64,000 bases of DNA, taken from positions 448,131 through 512,130 of the forward strand of contig QFDA01000001.1 in NCBI GenBank assembly GCA_003130815.1, in the 5' to 3' direction. A model generated the notes under the pieces. It did not search any database, was not told the origin of the DNA, and saw only the letters and a program-made list of their open reading frames with translations. This DNA comes from Bacteroidetes bacterium SCGC AAA795-G10. Lineage in GTDB: Bacteria; Bacteroidota; Bacteroidia; Flavobacteriales; Flavobacteriaceae. This document shows, in pieces, positions 3,247 through 12,192 of this stretch. The number at the start of each line of letters is the position of its first letter. Positions within the stretch are counted from its first letter, which is position 1. A program made the translations under genes and the position numbers.

Positions 3247-4224
3247 TTAAAGTAGCGAATTGTCAATCAAACTCATTATTTGATTAACTTTTTTCCTTTT
3301 TATATGCATGTTGTCAGCATTAAATGAATGTGGATTGTCAGTCAGAACTGCCTCAAAAGAAGGAAAATAAAAAACATTTTCGTGTGAATTTACAACCTTA
3401 TCCACAGCCGTTTTTAATAAGCACTTAGCTGAAAAAGATTTAGAAATTATATTGTCACTTAAAAATGTTGCGTTTTGAAAAACTGGACTTACGGTAAAAA
3501 TAATTTTTAAATTTTTATTGAATTTTTTCAAAAGATCAATTGAGGTATTCAAAAAAACAATATTTTCTTCTAAAGAAAATTCAATAGGCTTTAAGGTTTT
3601 GAATTTTTTTCTCATCTCAAATGGGGGAATTCTACCCCAGACAATATCCTTCTTAAAATCATACCACGTTTCATTTTGACCTACGGTAATTATTAACAAA
3701 TCTGTATTAATGAATACCTTTTTACTATTAGCCCTATGAGATATAATTTCATTTACAAGCTCCTTTTCGCTTCTATGGAGACCTACAATCCATTCTCTTA
3801 ACGGGTCAAAATAATTTCCTTTATAAAGTTCTTTATAAATTGGGATCTTGTTAGTTAATGAATATAATAAAACTTGTTCCAAATTTTTAGTTGTGAAAAC
3901 CCTACCCCAATTGGCTGAGTAGTCAAACAAGTTTTTTTCTAAGTTTAAATAATTGTACTTAGTTTCTGAATTGAAAAACTTAGAGACCTCTTCAGCAAAA
4001 CATGTTCCAATTGATGAAATTCTAAACTCACTTTTATAATTTAAATCTTTAAGTAAGTTTTTAGATTCAATTTTAAGTAACTTATCTATATTAATACCAT
4101 AAGGATAAATTTGTGAAAAACTAATATTATTTTTCTCATCGTTTTGAAATTTACCAGGAAAAATTCTTAAAATAATTTGATGTAAGTCCTTTAAAGACTC
4201 TTTAATTTTTTTTAAAACTTTCAT
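3247..4224 (-). CDS. GSCFA domain protein
   Basis: A 325-residue protein of the GSCFA family, whose name comes from a Gly-Ser-Cys-Phe-Ala motif. Here it reads SSIGTCFAEEVSKFF near residue 70. Downstream the family features ITVGQNETWYD and VWGRIPPFEM are visible, followed by FTVSPVFQNATF. The family is common in Bacteroidota and has an SGNH-hydrolase-like character, but its biochemical role is poorly defined. The start at 4224 overlaps the tail of the KdsB gene by 23 bases. Position in a glycan operon suggests a role in modifying or attaching sugars or acyl groups, which is inference only. Confidence 0.85.
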   Translation of the reverse strand: MKVLKKIKESLKDLHQIILRIFPGKFQNDEKNNISFSQIYPYGINIDKLLKIESKNLLKDLNYKSEFRISSIGTCFAEEVSKFFNSETKYNYLNLEKNLFDYSANWGRVFTTKNLEQVLLYSLTNKIPIYKELYKGNYFDPLREWIVGLHRSEKELVNEIISHRANSKKVFINTDLLIITVGQNETWYDFKKDIVWGRIPPFEMRKKFKTLKPIEFSLEENIVFLNTSIDLLKKFNKNLKIIFTVSPVFQNATFLSDNIISKSFSAKCLLKTAVDKVVNSHENVFYFPSFEAVLTDNPHSFNADNMHIKRKKVNQIMSLIDNSLL

Positions 4225-4978
4225 TTGATATTTTTTTTAACAAGGATATTTGATTTTGATCTTCTGAAAGTATTTTTTTTACCAATCTTAATTCATCAAT
4301 ATCGTTTACTGATGGGAGACCCTCTGGGAGTTTAACCGCCTTAATTTTTATTCCATTCTCAATGGCTTTCATTTGTTCAATAGACTCTAGATATGAAAAA
4401 CTTGTATTTTTTGTATTTACTATTTTAGCTAACGTCTCTTTTTTAAATGCAATTAAGCCTTGAATTTTGAATATGTTTTTATTGTAATTAGAATTAGAAA
4501 CCGGTGATTTCCTGAAACAAAAAATTATTTGATTTTTAATATTTAAAATACATTTAACTTTATTATTATCGTCTATGTCATCAGGGTTATTTATCTCTGA
4601 AATAGCATTCCACATCATTTCATCTTTAGACTCCTTTATTGACTTGACAAATAAATCTAAATAACTTGGAATTAGCAAAGGCTCATCTCCTTGAACTAGT
4701 AAAACATGGCTACAATTAATTTTAGAAATTGCTTCAAAAACCCTAGATGTCCCATTTTGATGTATGTTATTCGTGAAAACTACTTTACCCCCAAATGACT
4801 CTACTATATCTTTGATTTCAGAATCTCCTGTGGCAATTAAAACTTCACCTATTTCCTCTGCTAATAAAACGCGCCTTCTGACATGTTCAATCATAGGAAG
4901 ACCTTCAATATTAATGAGGACTTTTCTTTTTAATCTTAAAGAATCCAAATGACATGGTATAATTACTTTTATTAACAT
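4202..4978 (-). CDS. kdsB: CMP-Kdo synthetase-like cytidylyltransferase
   Basis: This protein belongs to the 3-deoxy-manno-octulosonate cytidylyltransferase family, which activates Kdo as CMP-Kdo. The ATG at 4978, four bases after the upstream stop, gives 258 residues, the normal KdsB length. Starting earlier would add a 21-residue leader overlapping the upstream gene. Family landmarks are IIPCHLDSLRLKRKVL (counterpart of IPAR-SRLPGKPL), GTSRVFEA (counterpart of GTDRVAEA) and LLVQGDEPLL with the metal-binding Asp. The SRLPGK block is diverged, so the substrate may be a Kdo variant. It shares the operon with a KdsA homologue at 9617-10501, which supports an ulosonic acid activated for capsule rather than only for lipid A core. 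Confidence 0.85.
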   Translation of the reverse strand: MLIKVIIPCHLDSLRLKRKVLINIEGLPMIEHVRRRVLLAEEIGEVLIATGDSEIKDIVESFGGKVVFTNNIHQNGTSRVFEAISKINCSHVLLVQGDEPLLIPSYLDLFVKSIKESKDEMMWNAISEINNPDDIDDNNKVKCILNIKNQIIFCFRKSPVSNSNYNKNIFKIQGLIAFKKETLAKIVNTKNTSFSYLESIEQMKAIENGIKIKAVKLPEGLPSVNDIDELRLVKKILSEDQNQISLLKKISNESFKKN

Positions 4979-4982
4979 AATA

Positions 4983-5735
4983 TTATTGTGGTAATACTCC
5001 ACAATCAACATTAATACACTGTCCCGTAATAGCACTAGCACTTTCAGATGCTAAAAACACACATGTTTGTCCTACTTCTAAAGAAGTAGGCATTCTCAAT
5101 AGTGGTGAATTTAACCTCGTGAATTCATTTATAAATTTTTTGGGATCTCCATTTCCTGGTGAGCTTTTGTCCATTAGAGCCTCATTTAACCCTTCTGTAT
5201 TTATTAATACAGGACAAACTGCATTAACTCTTATACCTTTAGGACCTAATTCCTTTGAAAGAGATTGTGTCAAGCCATTCATGCCGAATTTTGAAGCTAC
5301 ATATGCTGAATTATTACTGCTACCCCTTTTACCTGCTAAACTTGACACATTTATAATAGTTCCTTCTTTATTTAAGTATTTTGAGGCAATCTTTGAACCC
5401 CAGAAAGCTCCTTTTAGATTTGTATCAATAATATCGGTTAAAAATTCTTCATTTATTTCTTCAATTGGCTTCCACTTTGAATATCCAGCATTATTTATGA
5501 AACAATCCAATCTTCCAAATTCATCAATTGTTGTTTCAACCAAATTTAAATGGTATTTCTCATACCTTACATCTGTATATACAAACCTCACATTGTCACC
5601 AAATTGTTTACTTAAATCTCTATCTTGTCTAGACCCGACAACTACTATATAATTATTATCAATAAACGCCTTTGTTATTCCATAGCCAATGCCTCTACTT
5701 CCTCCAGTAACAATAACAACTTTTTTGTTATTCAT
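4983..5735 (-). CDS. SDR-family oxidoreductase
   Basis: A classical short-chain dehydrogenase/reductase of 250 residues from the ATG at 5735. That start lies five bases after the upstream stop. A possible start at 5756 would overlap the upstream gene and place extra residues ahead of the Rossmann strand. The cofactor motif TGGSRGIG is at the N-terminus, NNAG follows mid-protein, and the catalytic Ser and YVASK are present (Ser in NVSSLAG). The end INVDCGVLPQ is typical of classical SDRs. It lies between a second SDR gene and the KdsB gene, so oxidation or reduction of a ulosonic acid or its precursor is plausible. Substrate is unknown. Confidence 0.87.
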   Translation of the reverse strand: MNNKKVVIVTGGSRGIGYGITKAFIDNNYIVVVGSRQDRDLSKQFGDNVRFVYTDVRYEKYHLNLVETTIDEFGRLDCFINNAGYSKWKPIEEINEEFLTDIIDTNLKGAFWGSKIASKYLNKEGTIINVSSLAGKRGSSNNSAYVASKFGMNGLTQSLSKELGPKGIRVNAVCPVLINTEGLNEALMDKSSPGNGDPKKFINEFTRLNSPLLRMPTSLEVGQTCVFLASESASAITGQCINVDCGVLPQ

Positions 5736-5740
5736 AAATT

Positions 5741-6517
5741 TTAAATTGTCATACAAGAATAACCCCCGTCAACACATATTTCAGATCCCGTCACGAAACT
5801 TGATGCATCAGACGCTAACCACAAAATAGCTCCTGTTAATTCGTTTGGGCTTCCAAATCTTTTCATCGGCGTATGCCCAAGAATTGCTTTTTTTCTATTT
5901 TCATCGATAAAGTTTTCTAAATTCCATTTTGTTGGGAAAAAACCAGGTCTTATGGCATTTACTCTAACGCCCATTGTCCCCCATTCTCTAGCTAGATTTT
6001 GAGTTAAATTTTTTATTGCTGCTTTTGAGGCTGAGTAAGTAAAGGCTTTTGAAAGCGGTGGTCCAGCTGAAGCTGAAGATATATTTATTATGCAACCGCT
6101 TTTATTTCTTACCATGTGTTCACCAAAAACTTGACATCCAAAAAAAGTGCCTTTAATTTGAGAATCCATAATTTCGTCCCACTCTTCTTCTGAAATATTA
6201 AAAAAAGGTGTTGCTCCATTTATTCCAGCACCATTTATCAGTACATCAATTTTTTTAAAGTTTGTTAAAATAATTTCTAAAACTCTCAAATGCTCTTTTT
6301 TAATTGAAACATCCATGGATAAGGATAATGTTTCGTTGAATCCTTCATTATTTATTTCATTTTCGATTTTTTTAACTTTTTCTATTTTTTTATCGACTAG
6401 GATTACTTTACATCCGCACCTTGCAAAAGATATGGCCATTTCTGAACACAAATGCCCTCCTGAACCAATTGCTACTACAACTTTATTTTTTAGATTAAAT
6501 AATTTATCTATATACAT
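5741..6517 (-). CDS. SDR-family oxidoreductase
   Basis: A 258-residue classical SDR. The nucleotide loop is slightly unusual (AIGSGGHLCSEM in place of TGxxxGIG), so cofactor affinity may differ. NGAG and the catalytic Ser and Tyr-Lys (ISSASAG and YSASK) are intact, and the C-terminus SEICVDGGYSCMTI is standard. It precedes another SDR by five bases. Paired SDRs in sugar operons often carry out sequential oxidation and reduction, and this pair sits inside the Kdo-like module. The specific reaction cannot be assigned. Confidence 0.87.
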   Translation of the reverse strand: MYIDKLFNLKNKVVVAIGSGGHLCSEMAISFARCGCKVILVDKKIEKVKKIENEINNEGFNETLSLSMDVSIKKEHLRVLEIILTNFKKIDVLINGAGINGATPFFNISEEEWDEIMDSQIKGTFFGCQVFGEHMVRNKSGCIINISSASAGPPLSKAFTYSASKAAIKNLTQNLAREWGTMGVRVNAIRPGFFPTKWNLENFIDENRKKAILGHTPMKRFGSPNELTGAILWLASDASSFVTGSEICVDGGYSCMTI

Positions 6518-6542: not shown

Positions 6543-7433
6543 TTAACTACAAATAAGCCCTTCCAAATAAGATTTATAATATGGTAATGAATTTTTCAAA
6601 ATCTCCCAATTTTCTTTATCATTTATAAATTTTAAATTTTCCAAATCTTCTTTGAAGTTATTAATAATTCCCTCTATATCTCCAATAAAGTTTTCTTTAA
6701 AAATTACCGCCATTTTTTTATATGTTTCTTTCTGAACTATATCATTCAGTAAATTATTCCCTGAAGTAAATTTAAACTGAATCATCATTCTGTAATTTCC
6801 AAGTTCTGCTCTGTGTAAACCTGATACATCTAAAAAAATTACATCCCCAGGATTGGAATACATTTCTTCTACTTGATAATTAAATTTATTTATGTCATAT
6901 AAGCCCTGTGAAGAAATAAAAATATCTTTATGTGATTTTGAGGCATATAAGGTTCTTGTGGAAGTCTTATCTATTTTAGATAATGGGATATGAAAGGTGA
7001 ATTCTTGAAAATAATCGGTATGCCAACTACACGGAATATTATACTTAGCATTTTCTTTTATTTCAGGATTAGTTATAACAATTGATGGTGGAACTTGTAA
7101 AAAACATTTTCTTTTTAAAATATTTTCATAAAAAAACCCAAGTGTATTTTGAATTTCTTGATTACTAATTATTTCATTGACAAATTCAGAATTAATTAGT
7201 GGTAATGCTAAGTTTGATTTTGTTTTTTTAAAATTTTTTTCTTTCAAATGATAACGACTAATTATATGCTCAATCGATTCTAATGAAATTATATTTTTTG
7301 AAATCCTAAAGCCCTCTTTAACAAGAAAATTTTCCTTATTATCTGTTTTATTTGAGACAATATTTTTGTTCAATTTATTATATACTTCTCCCAAATAATT
7401 ATAAACTCTAAATGGATTAAGCATAATTCTCAC
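6543..7433 (-). CDS. Phytanoyl-CoA dioxygenase (PhyH)-like Fe(II) oxygenase
   Basis: A 296-residue protein of the PhyH-type 2-oxoglutarate oxygenase group. The iron ligands H138-x-D140 (SWHTDYF) and H207 (SGLHRAEL) are visible, and R215 (NYRMMIQF) can bind 2-oxoglutarate. The segment GDVIFLDVSGLHRA is the usual PhyH signature. The gene starts inside the end of the methyltransferase gene (17-base overlap). An internal ATG four codons in would shorten the overlap. This is the second iron oxygenase in the operon and is unrelated in detail to the one at 918-1733. A hydroxylated glycan or lipid intermediate is a reasonable guess, not shown by the sequence. Confidence 0.78.
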   Translation of the reverse strand: MRIMLNPFRVYNYLGEVYNKLNKNIVSNKTDNKENFLVKEGFRISKNIISLESIEHIISRYHLKEKNFKKTKSNLALPLINSEFVNEIISNQEIQNTLGFFYENILKRKCFLQVPPSIVITNPEIKENAKYNIPCSWHTDYFQEFTFHIPLSKIDKTSTRTLYASKSHKDIFISSQGLYDINKFNYQVEEMYSNPGDVIFLDVSGLHRAELGNYRMMIQFKFTSGNNLLNDIVQKETYKKMAVIFKENFIGDIEGIINNFKEDLENLKFINDKENWEILKNSLPYYKSYLEGLICS

Positions 7434-8352
7434 CTTTTAAATTAGTTGAAAATAATATACCACCAAAATCTCCCCTGTTAGTCATTCTTTTAATTACATA
7501 ATTAATATAGTTTCTATGAGAATTATCTGCCATGAAAAGTAGCTTTTTTAATTTTAGAGTTCTGTCATTTTTGGACCTTTTGTTAAGAAGCGCAATTTCA
7601 ATTTTATCTTGATTTAGTTTTGAAATATTCAATGTACATCTTCCAAACATCCTTTTTTTTATATTTATATCGGGAGACAAATATTGATGAGTAACAGGAT
7701 TGTGCCCGACCTTCTCATGTGCTCCGTGATAAATAATATTAATTTTATTAAAACCTTTCTCAATGGCAATTTCAATAACTTCAAAAAGATTTATGATATT
7801 AAAGAAAACAAGCTGTCCTGCCTCATGTCTATACCTAGCAATTTTCAAATCGCTAATAGTCTTTCCTTTTAAACATGACACAAATTGGCAAGAAAATGAT
7901 TTATTCGTTACCTCTAAAAGTTTTGAAAAAACTTTTAAGGGTGTCTCCATGTGGTGAACAGCAATTCTTTCAAAAACATAGTCATATTTTTTTGTGAAAG
8001 TGTGCTTAGTTAAATCAGATTGAATCCAATTTGCTTCCTGAAATTTTTTTTTGCAAAAATCAATACCTTTTTTTGAAATATCCATTCCTGTATAATCTGA
8101 ATTTTTATCCAAGGTTTTATTATGATAAAGATACCTATACGCTCCTCCCATAGCAGACCCTATTTCTAAAATACTTCCATCAATTTTTTGATTTAAATTA
8201 TCAAATGTTTGTCTACCATTAAACAATGGATAGTCATGGAAATTCCAATTTGAAAATTCATATTTGTTATAGTTCTCTTCACTCCAAGTATCTGCCAACT
8301 TAGATCTATTATAAGATTCATTTATTAAGTTTTCGGAGTTTATGTTCTTCAT
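7417..8352 (-). CDS. Class I SAM-dependent methyltransferase
   Basis: A 311-residue methyltransferase with the Rossmann-type AdoMet motif I ILEIGSAMGG near residues 61-70, an acidic residue at the end of strand 2 (YTGMDISKKG), and the motif IV region YDYVFERIAVHHMETP. These show AdoMet binding. The acceptor is unknown. O- or N-methylation of a sugar is common in such loci. The next gene downstream overlaps its 3' end, indicating translational coupling. A 78-base AT-rich spacer upstream (8353-8430) carries nothing I can name. Confidence 0.85.
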   Translation of the reverse strand: MKNINSENLINESYNRSKLADTWSEENYNKYEFSNWNFHDYPLFNGRQTFDNLNQKIDGSILEIGSAMGGAYRYLYHNKTLDKNSDYTGMDISKKGIDFCKKKFQEANWIQSDLTKHTFTKKYDYVFERIAVHHMETPLKVFSKLLEVTNKSFSCQFVSCLKGKTISDLKIARYRHEAGQLVFFNIINLFEVIEIAIEKGFNKINIIYHGAHEKVGHNPVTHQYLSPDINIKKRMFGRCTLNISKLNQDKIEIALLNKRSKNDRTLKLKKLLFMADNSHRNYINYVIKRMTNRGDFGGILFSTNLKGENYA

Positions 8353-8430: not shown

Positions 8431-9216
8431 CTACTTAAAGTTGGCCATGGTCCCTTTCATTTGATCTGCCCATTTCCACAAAACAAACAAGTCAGAACCT
8501 AATATAATATAGGTATAGCCTAGTTCAAACATCTTTTTAATATTCTGTTTGTTAGGATCATTCAATTGTGTTCCACAACTTTTCCCAAACTTCTTGCAGG
8601 CATTAATAACTTTTTTAGATGCTTTTATAACTTTTGGATGGTCAAGTTTCCCTGGGACACCTAAAGATCCCGAAATATCATAAGGTCCAATCATTACCGC
8701 ATCAACTTCATCAAATTTTAACAAACTCTCAATGTTTTCTACAGCCTCAATTGTTTCTATTTGAAGAATTAATGATGAAGAATTATTCCAATCTGTGATG
8801 TAATTATTAAATTCAAATCCATATCCTTGAGCTCTATTTACTCCATAACTTCTTTTCCCAATAGGAGGGAATTTAAAATGATTTATTAATTTTTTAAGTT
8901 GATCAGGAGTGTTTACCATTTGAAATAACATGCCATCAGCACCAGATTCGAGTAAAGGTTTTATATAATTATTTGAATGTGATACGGGCCTTGGTAAGCA
9001 AGGGACATCATATGACTGGCTTGCAGAAATAATCCTTTGTGCTTCTGAAAGATTAATGGTTGAATGTTCCATATCAATTGCAATAAAATCAAAGCCGGCC
9101 ATAGCAAAGGTTTCAGTTATAGAGGGATGCGAATATGAAACCCATGCCGCAAATAAAACTTCTCTTTGTCTTAATGCTGTTTTTAATTTCAATCTAGTCT
9201 TATAAATATTTTTCAT
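8431..9216 (-). CDS. HpcH/HpaI-family pyruvate aldolase
   Basis: This 261-residue protein belongs to the HpcH/HpaI class II aldolase family (2-keto-3-deoxy-glucarate and 4-hydroxy-2-oxo-heptanedioate aldolases). These cleave or form a C-C bond between pyruvate and an aldehyde. Recognisable elements are AAWVSYSHPSITETFAMAG, the catalytic-base region AIDMEHST, the metal-binding Glu in LQIETIEA and the Asp in MIGPYDISGSLG. The length is typical. It follows a CBS protein and KdsA in the same operon, so it could make or remodel a 2-keto-3-deoxy sugar acid. Family members are more often catabolic, so its direction here is inference. Confidence 0.87.
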   Translation of the reverse strand: MKNIYKTRLKLKTALRQREVLFAAWVSYSHPSITETFAMAGFDFIAIDMEHSTINLSEAQRIISASQSYDVPCLPRPVSHSNNYIKPLLESGADGMLFQMVNTPDQLKKLINHFKFPPIGKRSYGVNRAQGYGFEFNNYITDWNNSSSLILQIETIEAVENIESLLKFDEVDAVMIGPYDISGSLGVPGKLDHPKVIKASKKVINACKKFGKSCGTQLNDPNKQNIKKMFELGYTYIILGSDLFVLWKWADQMKGTMANFK

Positions 9217-9220
9217 AAAA

Positions 9221-9613
9221 TTATTCCAAAAGTTTCTTTACTGCAGGGTGTAAATGAAGTAATCCTATTAATTTTTTTTCATTATCTAACACAGGTAAAT
9301 CCCATATTTGAATTCTACCCATTTTCTCAACAACATACTTTAAGTCATCATTAGATGAACATGTTACTGGATCACGTTTTGAGTGTATTAAAACATCGTC
9401 TACTAAAAAACTTGAAAATGGTTTCTGGACCTTTAATAATTTTCTTCTTAAATCTCCGTCAGTTATAATACCAATCAATTCTTTTTTATCATTAATAATG
9501 CAAACAAGACCCAAATTGGCCATATCCATTTCAGTTAGGGCTTCTTTAAGAATCATTTTTTTACTTACTACTGGGAAATCACCAAAAGGAATCATTACAT
9601 CATTTACTGTCAT
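9221..9613 (-). CDS. Stand-alone CBS-domain pair resembling the KdsD C-terminal half
   Basis: A 130-residue protein made of two CBS domains and nothing else. The order and wording closely track the C-terminal half of arabinose-5-phosphate isomerase KdsD: VNDVM at the start, ALTEMDMANLG, GIITDGDLRRKL, a second DDVL, and the ending LIGLLHLHPAVKKLL. KdsD normally has an N-terminal SIS isomerase domain, and it is missing here. The gene starts four bases after the KdsA gene, the enzyme that uses the KdsD product. CBS pairs bind adenine or CMP-type nucleotides, so a regulatory subunit sensing nucleotide or CMP-Kdo is plausible. An isomerase subunit would have to come from elsewhere. Confidence 0.85.
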   Translation of the reverse strand: MTVNDVMIPFGDFPVVSKKMILKEALTEMDMANLGLVCIINDKKELIGIITDGDLRRKLLKVQKPFSSFLVDDVLIHSKRDPVTCSSNDDLKYVVEKMGRIQIWDLPVLDNEKKLIGLLHLHPAVKKLLE

Positions 9614-9616
9614 AAC

Positions 9617-10501
9617 TTAAGGATTTGTAGGATGAACATTATCATCCCCTAATTTATTTAAAATTTCGATACGTATTTGATGAAGCTTTTTTGCTTGATA
9701 CAAAATATTTTCCAAGTATTTTAGGTCTAAAACTGTATTTGAATCAGATAAAGCCTTGGCAGGATTGTCATGAACTTCCATAAATAATAAATTTATGCCA
9801 TTAGCAACAGCAGATCTTACCAAATAGGGTATAAATTCTCTTTGTCCTCCTGATATGTTGCCCATAGATGTTGGAAGCTGAATTGAATGAGTTGCGTCAT
9901 AACAAACCGGATAACCTGTAGAAGCCATTATAGGAAAAGAGGTCATATCATTCACTAGCATATTGTAACCCATAAAAGTTCCTCTCTCAGTTAAAATAAT
10001 TTTTTCATTACCAAAAGATTCGAGTTTTCTACAAGAATTTTTCATATTCCAAGGGCTCATAAATTGCCCTTTTTTTAATAGAATCGGCTTGTTAGTTCTA
10101 GCAGCAGCCCTCAAAATTGAGGTTTGTCTACATAAATAAGCTGGCACTTGAACTAGATCACAAACCTCTCCCGTTAAATCAGCCCAAGAAGGATCAGAAA
10201 AGTCTGACACGACCGGAACTTTGTATAGGCGTCTAACTTCAGATAAAATTTCTAGTCCCTTTTCGATACCAACACCATGAAAACTTTTGGGGGATGACCT
10301 ACAATCCTTGTCATAACAAGATTTATAAATCCACTGAATTTTTAATTTGTCACAAATTTTTTTTATAGCCCCTGCCATAAATAAAGCATGGTCTCTATTT
10401 TCAATAGCACATGGCCCACCAACAAAAACAAGTGGATTTTGGCCTCCTATTTTTATTTTTTCAACATCTCCATATCCTACTTTAACTATTTTTTTATTCA
10501 T
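9617..10501 (-). CDS. kdsA: 3-deoxy-8-phosphooctulonate (Kdo-8-P) synthase
   Basis: A 294-residue KdsA homologue that condenses phosphoenolpyruvate with arabinose-5-phosphate. Family landmarks are YKSCYDKDCRSSPKSFHG, VVSDFSDPSWA, VQVPAYLCRQT, LLKKGQFMSPWNM and YDATHSIQLP. The motif GGPCAIEN has Cys at residue 31 where the E. coli enzyme has Asn, the mark of the metal-dependent class. The other expected metal ligands are present as His in DATHS, Glu in MEVHDNP and Asp in LSDSN. It groups with the CBS protein, aldolase and KdsB. No KdsC phosphatase or full KdsD is seen, so those steps must be encoded elsewhere. It could also make a related 3-deoxy sugar acid. Confidence 0.9.
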   Translation of the reverse strand: MNKKIVKVGYGDVEKIKIGGQNPLVFVGGPCAIENRDHALFMAGAIKKICDKLKIQWIYKSCYDKDCRSSPKSFHGVGIEKGLEILSEVRRLYKVPVVSDFSDPSWADLTGEVCDLVQVPAYLCRQTSILRAAARTNKPILLKKGQFMSPWNMKNSCRKLESFGNEKIILTERGTFMGYNMLVNDMTSFPIMASTGYPVCYDATHSIQLPTSMGNISGGQREFIPYLVRSAVANGINLLFMEVHDNPAKALSDSNTVLDLKYLENILYQAKKLHQIRIEILNKLGDDNVHPTNP

Positions 10502-10564: not shown

Positions 10565-11401
10565 CTATCCATGAAAGACATCAAACGAATTTTCCATATA
10601 CTTAAACACAATTGGCCTAGCCATATAAAGTCTACTTTGAATTTTAATCACCGAATCAGTTTTATTTGAGTTTCTTTTATATGAATACTTATAAAGTCCC
10701 CTAGGCTCCATTTGGATTCTAGTTATAATTGTATTTGATTCACTTAATTCCTCAATAATCAACTTTTGTTTTCTGTTAGTGGGATTAACCCAATAGAAGT
10801 CATATGAATACCTTGTTAATAACCTATGTTGAACAAAATATTTTTTTTTGAGAAAGCTAAAATTTCCAAGTTGTTTAATATCACCTCTTGACTCCTTATA
10901 AATAGCGTCTAAATTACCATGAACATAACTTTTTATAGGCCCATAGAAATTATTTTCGTAGCCTGTATAACCTCTTTCAGATAAAAAACAGTCATAATCT
11001 TTTAACCAAATAGGTGGATTTTTGTGTATTACAGCAAATGTACCATCATGTTTAATATTCAAATGGTTTGTGATTTCATTGATATTTATTCTATGTTTTA
11101 TATCCCGAATATTTTTGATTTCAAATCTTTCAACAAGGTCACCTGAATTATTAAAAAAGATTATTTCAACTTCAAAAATTTTGTGGTTTAAATTATCATT
11201 ATCTATCAGACGGTTAACATTTAATAATTCAAAAAAAGTGGACCAATTATTTTCTATTCTATATAAAAATAGGTCACTTGTTACGGTTGAAGAGTGCTTT
11301 GGAATTTTAGACAGTACAATGCCTCTTTTGGAAATTAATTCCAAATATTTTGGATTTATATTTCTTACAGCTGAATTTTTGATTTTTTTGTAGAAATTCA
11401 T
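10565..11401 (-). CDS. Unrecognised beta-rich protein of the glycan operon
   Basis: I do not recognise this 278-residue protein. It has no signal peptide or membrane segment. It is rich in aromatic and alternating hydrophobic residues, suggesting a beta-sandwich. Notable segments are GTFAVIHKNPPIW near residue 120, YGPIKSYVHGNLD near residue 155, and a His/Tyr-rich stretch VQHRLLTRYSYDFYWVNP near residue 190. The N-terminal NINPKYLEL resembles the start of the oxygenase encoded at 918-1733. It follows a second beta-rich unknown with a one-base overlap, and the two may form a pair. A role in recognising or modifying the glycan is inferred only from location. A 63-base AT-rich gap separates it from KdsA. 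Confidence 0.72.
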   Translation of the reverse strand: MNFYKKIKNSAVRNINPKYLELISKRGIVLSKIPKHSSTVTSDLFLYRIENNWSTFFELLNVNRLIDNDNLNHKIFEVEIIFFNNSGDLVERFEIKNIRDIKHRININEITNHLNIKHDGTFAVIHKNPPIWLKDYDCFLSERGYTGYENNFYGPIKSYVHGNLDAIYKESRGDIKQLGNFSFLKKKYFVQHRLLTRYSYDFYWVNPTNRKQKLIIEELSESNTIITRIQMEPRGLYKYSYKRNSNKTDSVIKIQSRLYMARPIVFKYMENSFDVFHG

Positions 11402-12192
11402 TAAAACTTTAATTTATTAAACCAACTAGTTTTAATTCTTTTTTGAACTTGGAATCTTGATCCATGCAATGTAAAGCTAGCTGGGGGGTGAGTATGCTCT
11501 AATGATAGCATTGGTGAAGTTCTGTTAATTCCAAACCCGAATGGGATTCCTGCCATATTTCTACAAATGAATGTAGGTAACTCATTTTTACTGAATTCAT
11601 ATTTATCTAACGATATAATGTTTGCATGATTGTTATAAACTTTTACTCTGTCAATAAATTTTTTCTTGTGCGGTAAATAGATTTCAATTATTGAGTATCT
11701 CCGAATTGGAGAAGTTTCCAAGTTTACAAAAACAAAATAATTTTCAATATTAACTTGCTGAACAAAAGGATGAAAAGTGAGTAAGCTACCTTTTTCTGGA
11801 AATGGATTAATTTCACCTTGATAACTAGTTTGAGATAATCCTAGGCTAAATCCAACTGTTGCTCTCCATTCTGGTGTCTTTGTGAAAGTAAATTGAGATT
11901 TAGGAAGAAAATTCATTGTTTTTGGAACATTATCATCTTTTCTAAGTTGAAGAATTACTAAAGTAGAATCAATATTTTCATTAGAAAATTTTAGATTCTC
12001 CATTTTGACATTGAATGAGTCACCATATTTTATTTCACCTATTTTTTTTGAGTTCCAGAGATTATCTCTAAGAAAAAATAACCAGAGTTTTTTAGTTTTT
12101 TTGTGAGATTTTTCCCAATTGTTAGGAGAAAAATTGTGAACCGTACAAAAACCTTTTGTTTCTAGGATATTAAAAAGAGGAAAAAAAGACAT
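11401..12192 (-). CDS. Unrecognised beta-rich protein, possible partner of its downstream neighbour
   Basis: This 263-residue protein matches no family I can name. It lacks a signal peptide and membrane segments and looks beta-rich. Striking parts are WRATVGFSLGLSQTSY near residue 125, a strand-rich core NYFVFVNLETSPIRRYSIIE, and GIPFGFGINRTSP followed by LEHTHPPASFTLHGSRF near the C-terminus. The His and Gly pattern could hold a metal or sugar site, which is speculation. Its stop overlaps the start of the next unknown by one base and it begins two bases after a methyltransferase gene, so it is clearly a translated operon member. Confidence 0.72.
   Translation of the reverse strand: MSFFPLFNILETKGFCTVHNFSPNNWEKSHKKTKKLWLFFLRDNLWNSKKIGEIKYGDSFNVKMENLKFSNENIDSTLVILQLRKDDNVPKTMNFLPKSQFTFTKTPEWRATVGFSLGLSQTSYQGEINPFPEKGSLLTFHPFVQQVNIENYFVFVNLETSPIRRYSIIEIYLPHKKKFIDRVKVYNNHANIISLDKYEFSKNELPTFICRNMAGIPFGFGINRTSPMLSLEHTHPPASFTLHGSRFQVQKRIKTSWFNKLKF

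Follow-up and report, generated by a model that had tools for sequence, protein, structure and literature searches.

The window (the whole stretch of DNA analysed, 64,000 nucleotides) comes from the genome of a marine member of the Flavobacteriaceae (assembly 1.93 Mb, 88.7% complete) and holds the gene cassette listed in Table 1. One of its products, 130 residues long, had been described from the sequence as a KdsD-type CBS pair without the SIS domain, and the searches confirm this. Pfam finds CBS domains in two stretches (PF00571, 57.3 bits; cut-off 24), which makes the protein a Bateman module in the sense of two CBS domains above the Pfam cut-off. The top NCBIfam model, that of kpsF/GutQ (TIGR00393), reaches 55.9 bits against a cut-off of 203.7, and its match is confined to model positions 157-268, the CBS half; the SIS domain that lies N-terminal to the CBS pair in KdsD, KpsF and GutQ is missing from the open reading frame. 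CBS pairs of A5P isomerases (4o9k, 3k2v, 3fna) are among the top PDB sequence matches, and 4o9k, whose ligand we take to be CMP-Kdo, is also the closest fold (Z 19.7, rmsd 1.7 over 125 residues) to the AlphaFold2 model of the protein, itself predicted at a mean pLDDT of 94.4. The nearest relatives of the orphan CBS pair are the C-terminal halves of KdsD.

The orphan gene is separated by 3 bases from the end, at 9617, of a KdsA homologue on its own strand (the four bases originally counted agree within counting). We have coined the name KdsA2 for the KdsA homologue beside the orphan. Upstream of it in the window are hexapeptide-transferase-like and polysaccharide-flippase-like genes, and the two proteins without Pfam match that precede it accompany KdsA2 in several unrelated loci, e.g. 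L089, L101, L105 and L108. On the other side of the pair, the KdsB-like synthetase scores 186.6 bits with PRK13368 (cut-off 255) and 111.8 with TIGR00466 (155.2), and the HxD motif of the protein lacking any family match suggests a PhyH-like dioxygenase.

Table 1. Genes of the cassette in the window, with the basis of each assignment
Feature	Position	Strand	Basis
Two proteins preceding KdsA2	10565-11401, 11401-12192		No Pfam match
KdsA2, variant 3-deoxy-8-phosphooctulonate synthase homologue, 294 aa	9617..10501	(-)	TIGR01362, 318.3 bits; cut-off 314
Orphan CBS pair (KdsD-type Bateman module)	9221..9613	(-)	ATG start, 130-aa ORF
HpcH/HpaI-family aldolase	8431..9216	(-)	Pfam PF03328, 102 bits
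Methyltransferase-fold protein, variable cargo in related loci	7417..8352	(-)	Pfam and locus comparison
Protein without Pfam or NCBIfam match	6543..7433	(-)	HxD motif
Short-chain dehydrogenase SDRa, D-mannonate oxidoreductase/KduD-like	5741..6517	(-)	NCBIfam
Short-chain dehydrogenase SDRb	4983..5756	(-)	NCBIfam
KdsB-like CMP-sugar synthetase	4202..5041	(-)	PF02348; below NCBIfam cut-offs
GSCFA-family protein, cassette end, likewise in G017 and G024	3247..4224	(-)	PF08885

For comparison of the orphans with other CBS pairs, a profile was built from 77 of the 79 CBS sequences found beside KdsA2 plus that of the window, 78 in all; L092 (start rule failed, frame open) and L151 (cut by the contig end) were dropped for length. 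With this profile 39 of 44 KdsD CBS pairs score 60-100 bits and the other five 27-52, 25 of the 44 KdsDs having been chosen earlier by similarity, and the CBS domains of IMPDH (n=15) score 43-53. CBS pairs fused to nucleotidyltransferases (10 places), presumably those of the PtmE type, score 24-51 bits, below most KdsD CBS pairs, and we rejected them as the source of the orphans. Q63, K64, P65, W104 and D105 are near-invariant among the orphans and are not at those places in the 44 KdsD pairs; D72 is also an orphan-own residue. In the first CBS domain, orphans and KdsD have the T-D-G-D-x-R-R segment in common, conservation that is presumably what a ligand site would show. The tree of these sequences is poorly resolved, with 135 columns for 147 rows and many open forks. 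A branch (support 92/78) separates KdsD from the orphans, so that, as far as so few columns allow, recent truncation of a host KdsD is unsupported; IMPDH arises from within the orphans, which may be an effect of long-branch attraction, and the tree thus does not show a single origin for them. The CBS frame is open throughout in 77 of 79 loci, the exceptions being L151 and L148, where only the second half is matched.

KdsA2 and canonical KdsA

The KdsA neighbour is itself unusual, a point missed in the original prediction. Its family score just passes the KDO-8-phosphate synthase threshold, and some relatives fall just below, but its acceptor site departs from the canonical KANRS: the window KdsA2 reads KDCRSS where canonical KdsA reads KANRSS. 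Over the 79 loci scored the site is K-D-[C/S/G]-R-S, with C in 74, S in 4 and G in 1; its two middle positions, A in 21/22 and N in 22/22 canonical references, never show N in KdsA2 and show D in 79/79. KANR is present in three PDB alignments of KdsA. Phe 122 is replaced by Tyr in all 79 KdsA2 sequences, the TD-x-H segment of the canonical enzyme is SDFS, and V184N is a further difference; altogether 27 alignment columns separate KdsA2 from the 22 canonical sequences, a narrow set made up of 20 Flavobacteriales, one viral contig and one second copy in L136. The metal ligands, which we take from the Aquifex enzyme to be C31, H205, E242 and D253, are kept. In a computational study of Neisseria KdsA, Asn57 and Arg58 contact ligands and an inhibitor in the A5P pocket meets Pro110, Phe112 and Leu113 (PMC6650799). 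By our own mapping, Asn57 is the Asn of KANRS and Phe112 the F of PAFLCRQ; both are replaced in KdsA2, so two residues of the acceptor pocket differ.

The C-terminal tail of KdsA2, measured between the E-T-H motif and the stop, is longer, at 49-54 residues (75 scored) compared with 36-48 in the canonical set (n=22). In the KdsA2 monomer model it is poorly predicted, the last block having a pLDDT of 49. In the window this C-terminus (9617-9670) carries a conserved GEDNVH-like tail past the canonical end. The tail is a possible docking arm for the CBS protein.

One locus offers a natural side-by-side comparison: in L136 (5343-12519), a MAG labelled Acetobacteraceae, a group of canonical KdsA, KdsB-like and KdsD genes lies a few kilobases from a KdsA2-CBS-KdsB group.

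Distribution of the pair and of KdsD

Three aligned KdsA homologues were the query for a scan of 84,980 species genomes, made with the patterns WIYKSCY and QFMSPWN, which adjoin the KDCRSS motif but exclude it; 84 relatives were obtained and 80 loci kept, relatives with neither pattern being missed by this design. Their labelled hosts include Flavobacteriaceae, Cytophagaceae, Balneolaceae, alpha-, beta-, gamma- and deltaproteobacteria, Nitrospirae, Leptospiraceae, Verrucomicrobiales, Prochlorococcus and others. A CBS gene directly follows KdsA2 in 79 of the 80, and in the remaining one, L143, the contig ends 23 bases past the KdsA stop. Spacings are mostly -20 to +14 bases (+40 in L097 and L098), figures that lean short because CBS starts were picked by nearness to the KdsA stop. 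No fused KdsA-CBS protein occurs among the 80 loci. The remaining cassette genes are less constant at the score thresholds we set, contig ends being ignored: aldolase in 45 loci, SDRa in 41, SDRb in 36 and KdsB in 49. KdsC, present in 20 (one weak), was rejected as a constant partner. The distance-matrix correlation for KdsA2-CBS (0.82) is no higher than those of other cassette pairs (0.76-0.89), so co-variation does not single the pair out.

Close homologues in unrelated operons would have argued against a link to Kdo genes, and at the thresholds used no free-standing one was found away from KdsA2 in any of four sets: 395 genomes of the window's phylum (one orphan, the window's own, E 1e-18), 385 of an alphaproteobacterial class (one, in the centre genome, E 1e-22), 266 of a Prochlorococcus genus (5, E 1e-15) and 136 of a SAR116 order (11, one of them partial, at the same E). 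A clean gap separates orphans from KdsD in the last two sets: the full orphans reach 176-198 bits and the partial one 95, and no full-length KdsD exceeds 74. All 16 of these Prochlorococcus and SAR116 orphan places, most of them already among the 80 loci, adjoin KdsA2, although that of L229 is cut by the contig end and that of L230 split in two frames. Viral carriers of the pair were also considered and rejected: the CBS queries have no relative among viral contigs, and of three relatives of the KdsA query two are 21% identical, the third, L163, grouping with the canonical references by residues and score. The L163 homologue, at position 7968 of a 332-kb viral contig, has KdsB-like and NeuB-like genes nearby. 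KdsA2-CBS is a recurrent, widely spread two-gene unit, near-obligate and tightly spaced; the original description of the free-standing CBS module as unusual holds for its frequency.

A search of the window genome for a SIS-only A5P isomerase, as had been proposed, found no KdsD-type SIS domain in the 1.93-Mb, 88.7% complete assembly. TIGR00393 matches the orphan and, weakly, two other CBS sequences, nothing else; the sole SIS match in Pfam is an unrelated, sugar-isomerase-like protein of 238 aa that is not KdsD-like. Within the genus the orphan occurs in 3/38 genomes (G000, G017, G024), and a full-score KDO8P-synthase homologue (37 genomes searched) in the same three. G017 and G024, the closest members, correspond to L083 (Bacteroidetes AG-920-B11) and L086 (Flavobacteriaceae TMED179); in G024 the order is NeuB-like, KdsA, CBS, methyltransferase, HpcH, SDR, SDR, KdsB, GSCFA. 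Across the genus the ordinary Kdo route looks lost: canonical KdsA is absent from the 37 genomes searched (G001-G037) and full-length KdsD is found in one of 38 (G023), though a KdsC-family phosphatase is found in 30 of 38, the window genome included.

KdsD was surveyed more widely in the genomes of 48 of the 80 loci, chosen by us mainly for longer contigs, with 32 left out. It is over the cut-off in 24, weaker or partial in 3 and absent from 21, including all 7 Prochlorococcus. Most of these are single-cell or metagenome assemblies, so that a single absence means little and it is the overall pattern that counts. A second, canonical KdsA accompanies KdsD in 24 of 27 genomes, compared with 6 of 21 lacking it, one of the six being a fragment (Fisher p 2.3e-5). 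The association is imperfect, since the isolate Anianabacter salinae (G498, L092) has canonical KdsA and no KdsD match. In the Prochlorococcus genus the two arrangements are mutually distinct: KANR-type KdsA lies beside full-length KdsD at 16 of 19 loci (within the short stretch fetched), the KdsA genes near KdsD being KANR in 16/16, and the orphan lies beside KDCR-type KdsA2 in 5/5; one further KdsD match, L214, is an unrelated longer protein and was set aside. KdsD is dispensable for the KdsA2-CBS pair.

Proposed function and relation to known systems

The pairing, the spacing and the orphans' own conserved residues make KdsA2 the likely target of the CBS protein, and we think it fairly probable that this protein serves KdsA2, a variant 3-deoxy-ulosonate-phosphate synthase, as its dedicated regulatory subunit. 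Three readings had been offered at the outset. A sensor acting directly on KdsA is favoured by the adjacency seen from either gene (79/80 loci from KdsA2, 16/16 from the CBS side), and the 21 of 48 genomes without KdsD contradict both a split enzyme and a subunit that acts on a KdsD from elsewhere.

Precedent for feedback at the pathway's first step comes from the A5P isomerase of structure 3ETN, for which CMP-Kdo is recorded as inhibitor (PMC9587256), and DarB is a stand-alone CBS pair that binds and controls Rel, the apo form binding and the ligand causing release (PMC7900238). With KdsA2 as likely target, these two cases lead us to propose that the end product feeds back on KdsA2 by way of the free CBS protein. 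The CBS pair would bind the cytidine-activated end product of the cassette's KdsB-like enzyme, or else an adenine nucleotide; by analogy the CMP-activated product is probably the one sensed. The ligand-responsive protein would then contact KdsA2 and slow the first committed step. In the usual pathway the A5P isomerase is the point of feedback; where KdsD is lacking, as here, its sensor may have been kept and moved onto the next enzyme. KdsA2 itself would condense PEP with an aldose phosphate whose supply needs no KdsD, yielding a Kdo-like sugar destined for a surface polysaccharide; stereochemistry could be adjusted by the two SDRs (KduD/mannonate-oxidoreductase-like). The altered acceptor pocket and the KdsD-less genomes suggest that the acceptor is perhaps other than A5P; ribose 5-phosphate is our guess. 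In the 27 surveyed genomes with a KdsD-like gene, A5P would be available.

Operon genes sit close together anyway, and this tells against the regulatory-subunit reading. The CBS protein might instead serve another cassette member (the KdsB-like synthetase, the aldolase or a glycosyltransferase), its place beside KdsA2 being operon history. The KdsB-like gene is indeed common at our threshold (49/80) and the distance correlations are alike for all cassette pairs; only the CBS gene, however, is always present and always beside KdsA2, HpcH, the SDRs and KdsB being variable or apart (e.g. L092, L093, L099, L131, L145), and we regard this explanation as unlikely while still giving it some weight. 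Strong pairing would be expected of any obligate subunit, and so also of a structural or chaperone-like one with no sensing role, but the retention of T-D-G-D-x-R-R in both orphans and KdsD leads us to think this quite unlikely.

Kinship with the KdsD CBS pair and the KdsD-like gene in 27 of the 48 pair-bearing genomes would fit a protein that regulates KdsD or a SIS enzyme from another locus, or that makes up half of a split KdsD. The KdsDs over the cut-off, however, already have a CBS pair of their own, the orphan adjoins KdsA2 and not KdsD, and the many pair-bearing genomes without KdsD, that of the window among them, together with the dichotomy in Prochlorococcus, make both forms very improbable. 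A decaying remnant of a KdsD that lost its SIS part would likewise be KdsD-type in sequence; the open frames, the orphans' own conserved residues and the separate KdsD branch of the tree, which on its few columns gives no indication of repeated recent truncation, leave that idea scarcely credible.

The regulatory-subunit reading may be carried further. The occurrence of the two-gene pair in many unrelated bacteria, often without the isomerase, points to a rewired pathway, perhaps a new one, for making an acidic sugar of the cell surface. KdsA2 with its free CBS protein might be an unrecognised, laterally spread, feedback-controlled synthase that joins PEP and a non-A5P aldose phosphate into a Kdo-like 3-deoxy-ulosonic acid for which no gene has yet been assigned, often in bacteria lacking KdsD, such as the pair-bearing Prochlorococcus; we advance this tentatively, leaning slightly against rather than for it. 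Should KdsA2 not use A5P, Kdo has been over-called in many marine genomes, since family libraries label KdsA2 as 3-deoxy-8-phosphooctulonate synthase and Kdo would be inferred from it, and a sugar on the surface of some Prochlorococcus, SAR11, SAR116 and marine Flavobacteria has yet to be named. The pair would also be a clear example of how a sensor module that most bacteria carry on one pathway enzyme can stand free beside the next.

In the open-access literature (subscription papers being outside the scope), 'CBS domain-containing protein' is never joined with '3-deoxy-8-phosphooctulonate synthase', nor CMP-Kdo with CBS and A5P isomerase; CBS domain, kdsA and kdsB come together in one paper, on a Brachyspira genome. 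Among known proteins the CBS pairs of KdsD, KpsF and GutQ (4o9k, 3k2v, 3fna) resemble the orphan most, with two CBS domains, the best match in sequence and fold, and the TDGDxRR segment and final H in common; the orphan differs in having no SIS domain, in its QKP and WD residues and in having a KdsA variant as partner gene. KdsA2 in turn is homologous to KdsA (TIGR01362) over its whole length and just over the cut-off, but has KD[C/S/G]RS, SDFS, F122Y, V184N and the longer C-terminal tail. SIS-only A5P isomerases of the 3etn type also show the KdsD halves parted, the half that is missing being the opposite one. A parallel to the proposed mode of action is DarB/CbpB, a free CBS pair that controls a metabolic enzyme by binding (PMC7900238); DarB is also treated in PMC9848473 and PMC8822347. 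The folds are alike (Z about 17 for 6yj8 and 8acu with the orphan model), whereas identity in the structural alignment is 16%, and the ligand of DarB is c-di-AMP, its targets Rel and pyruvate carboxylase.
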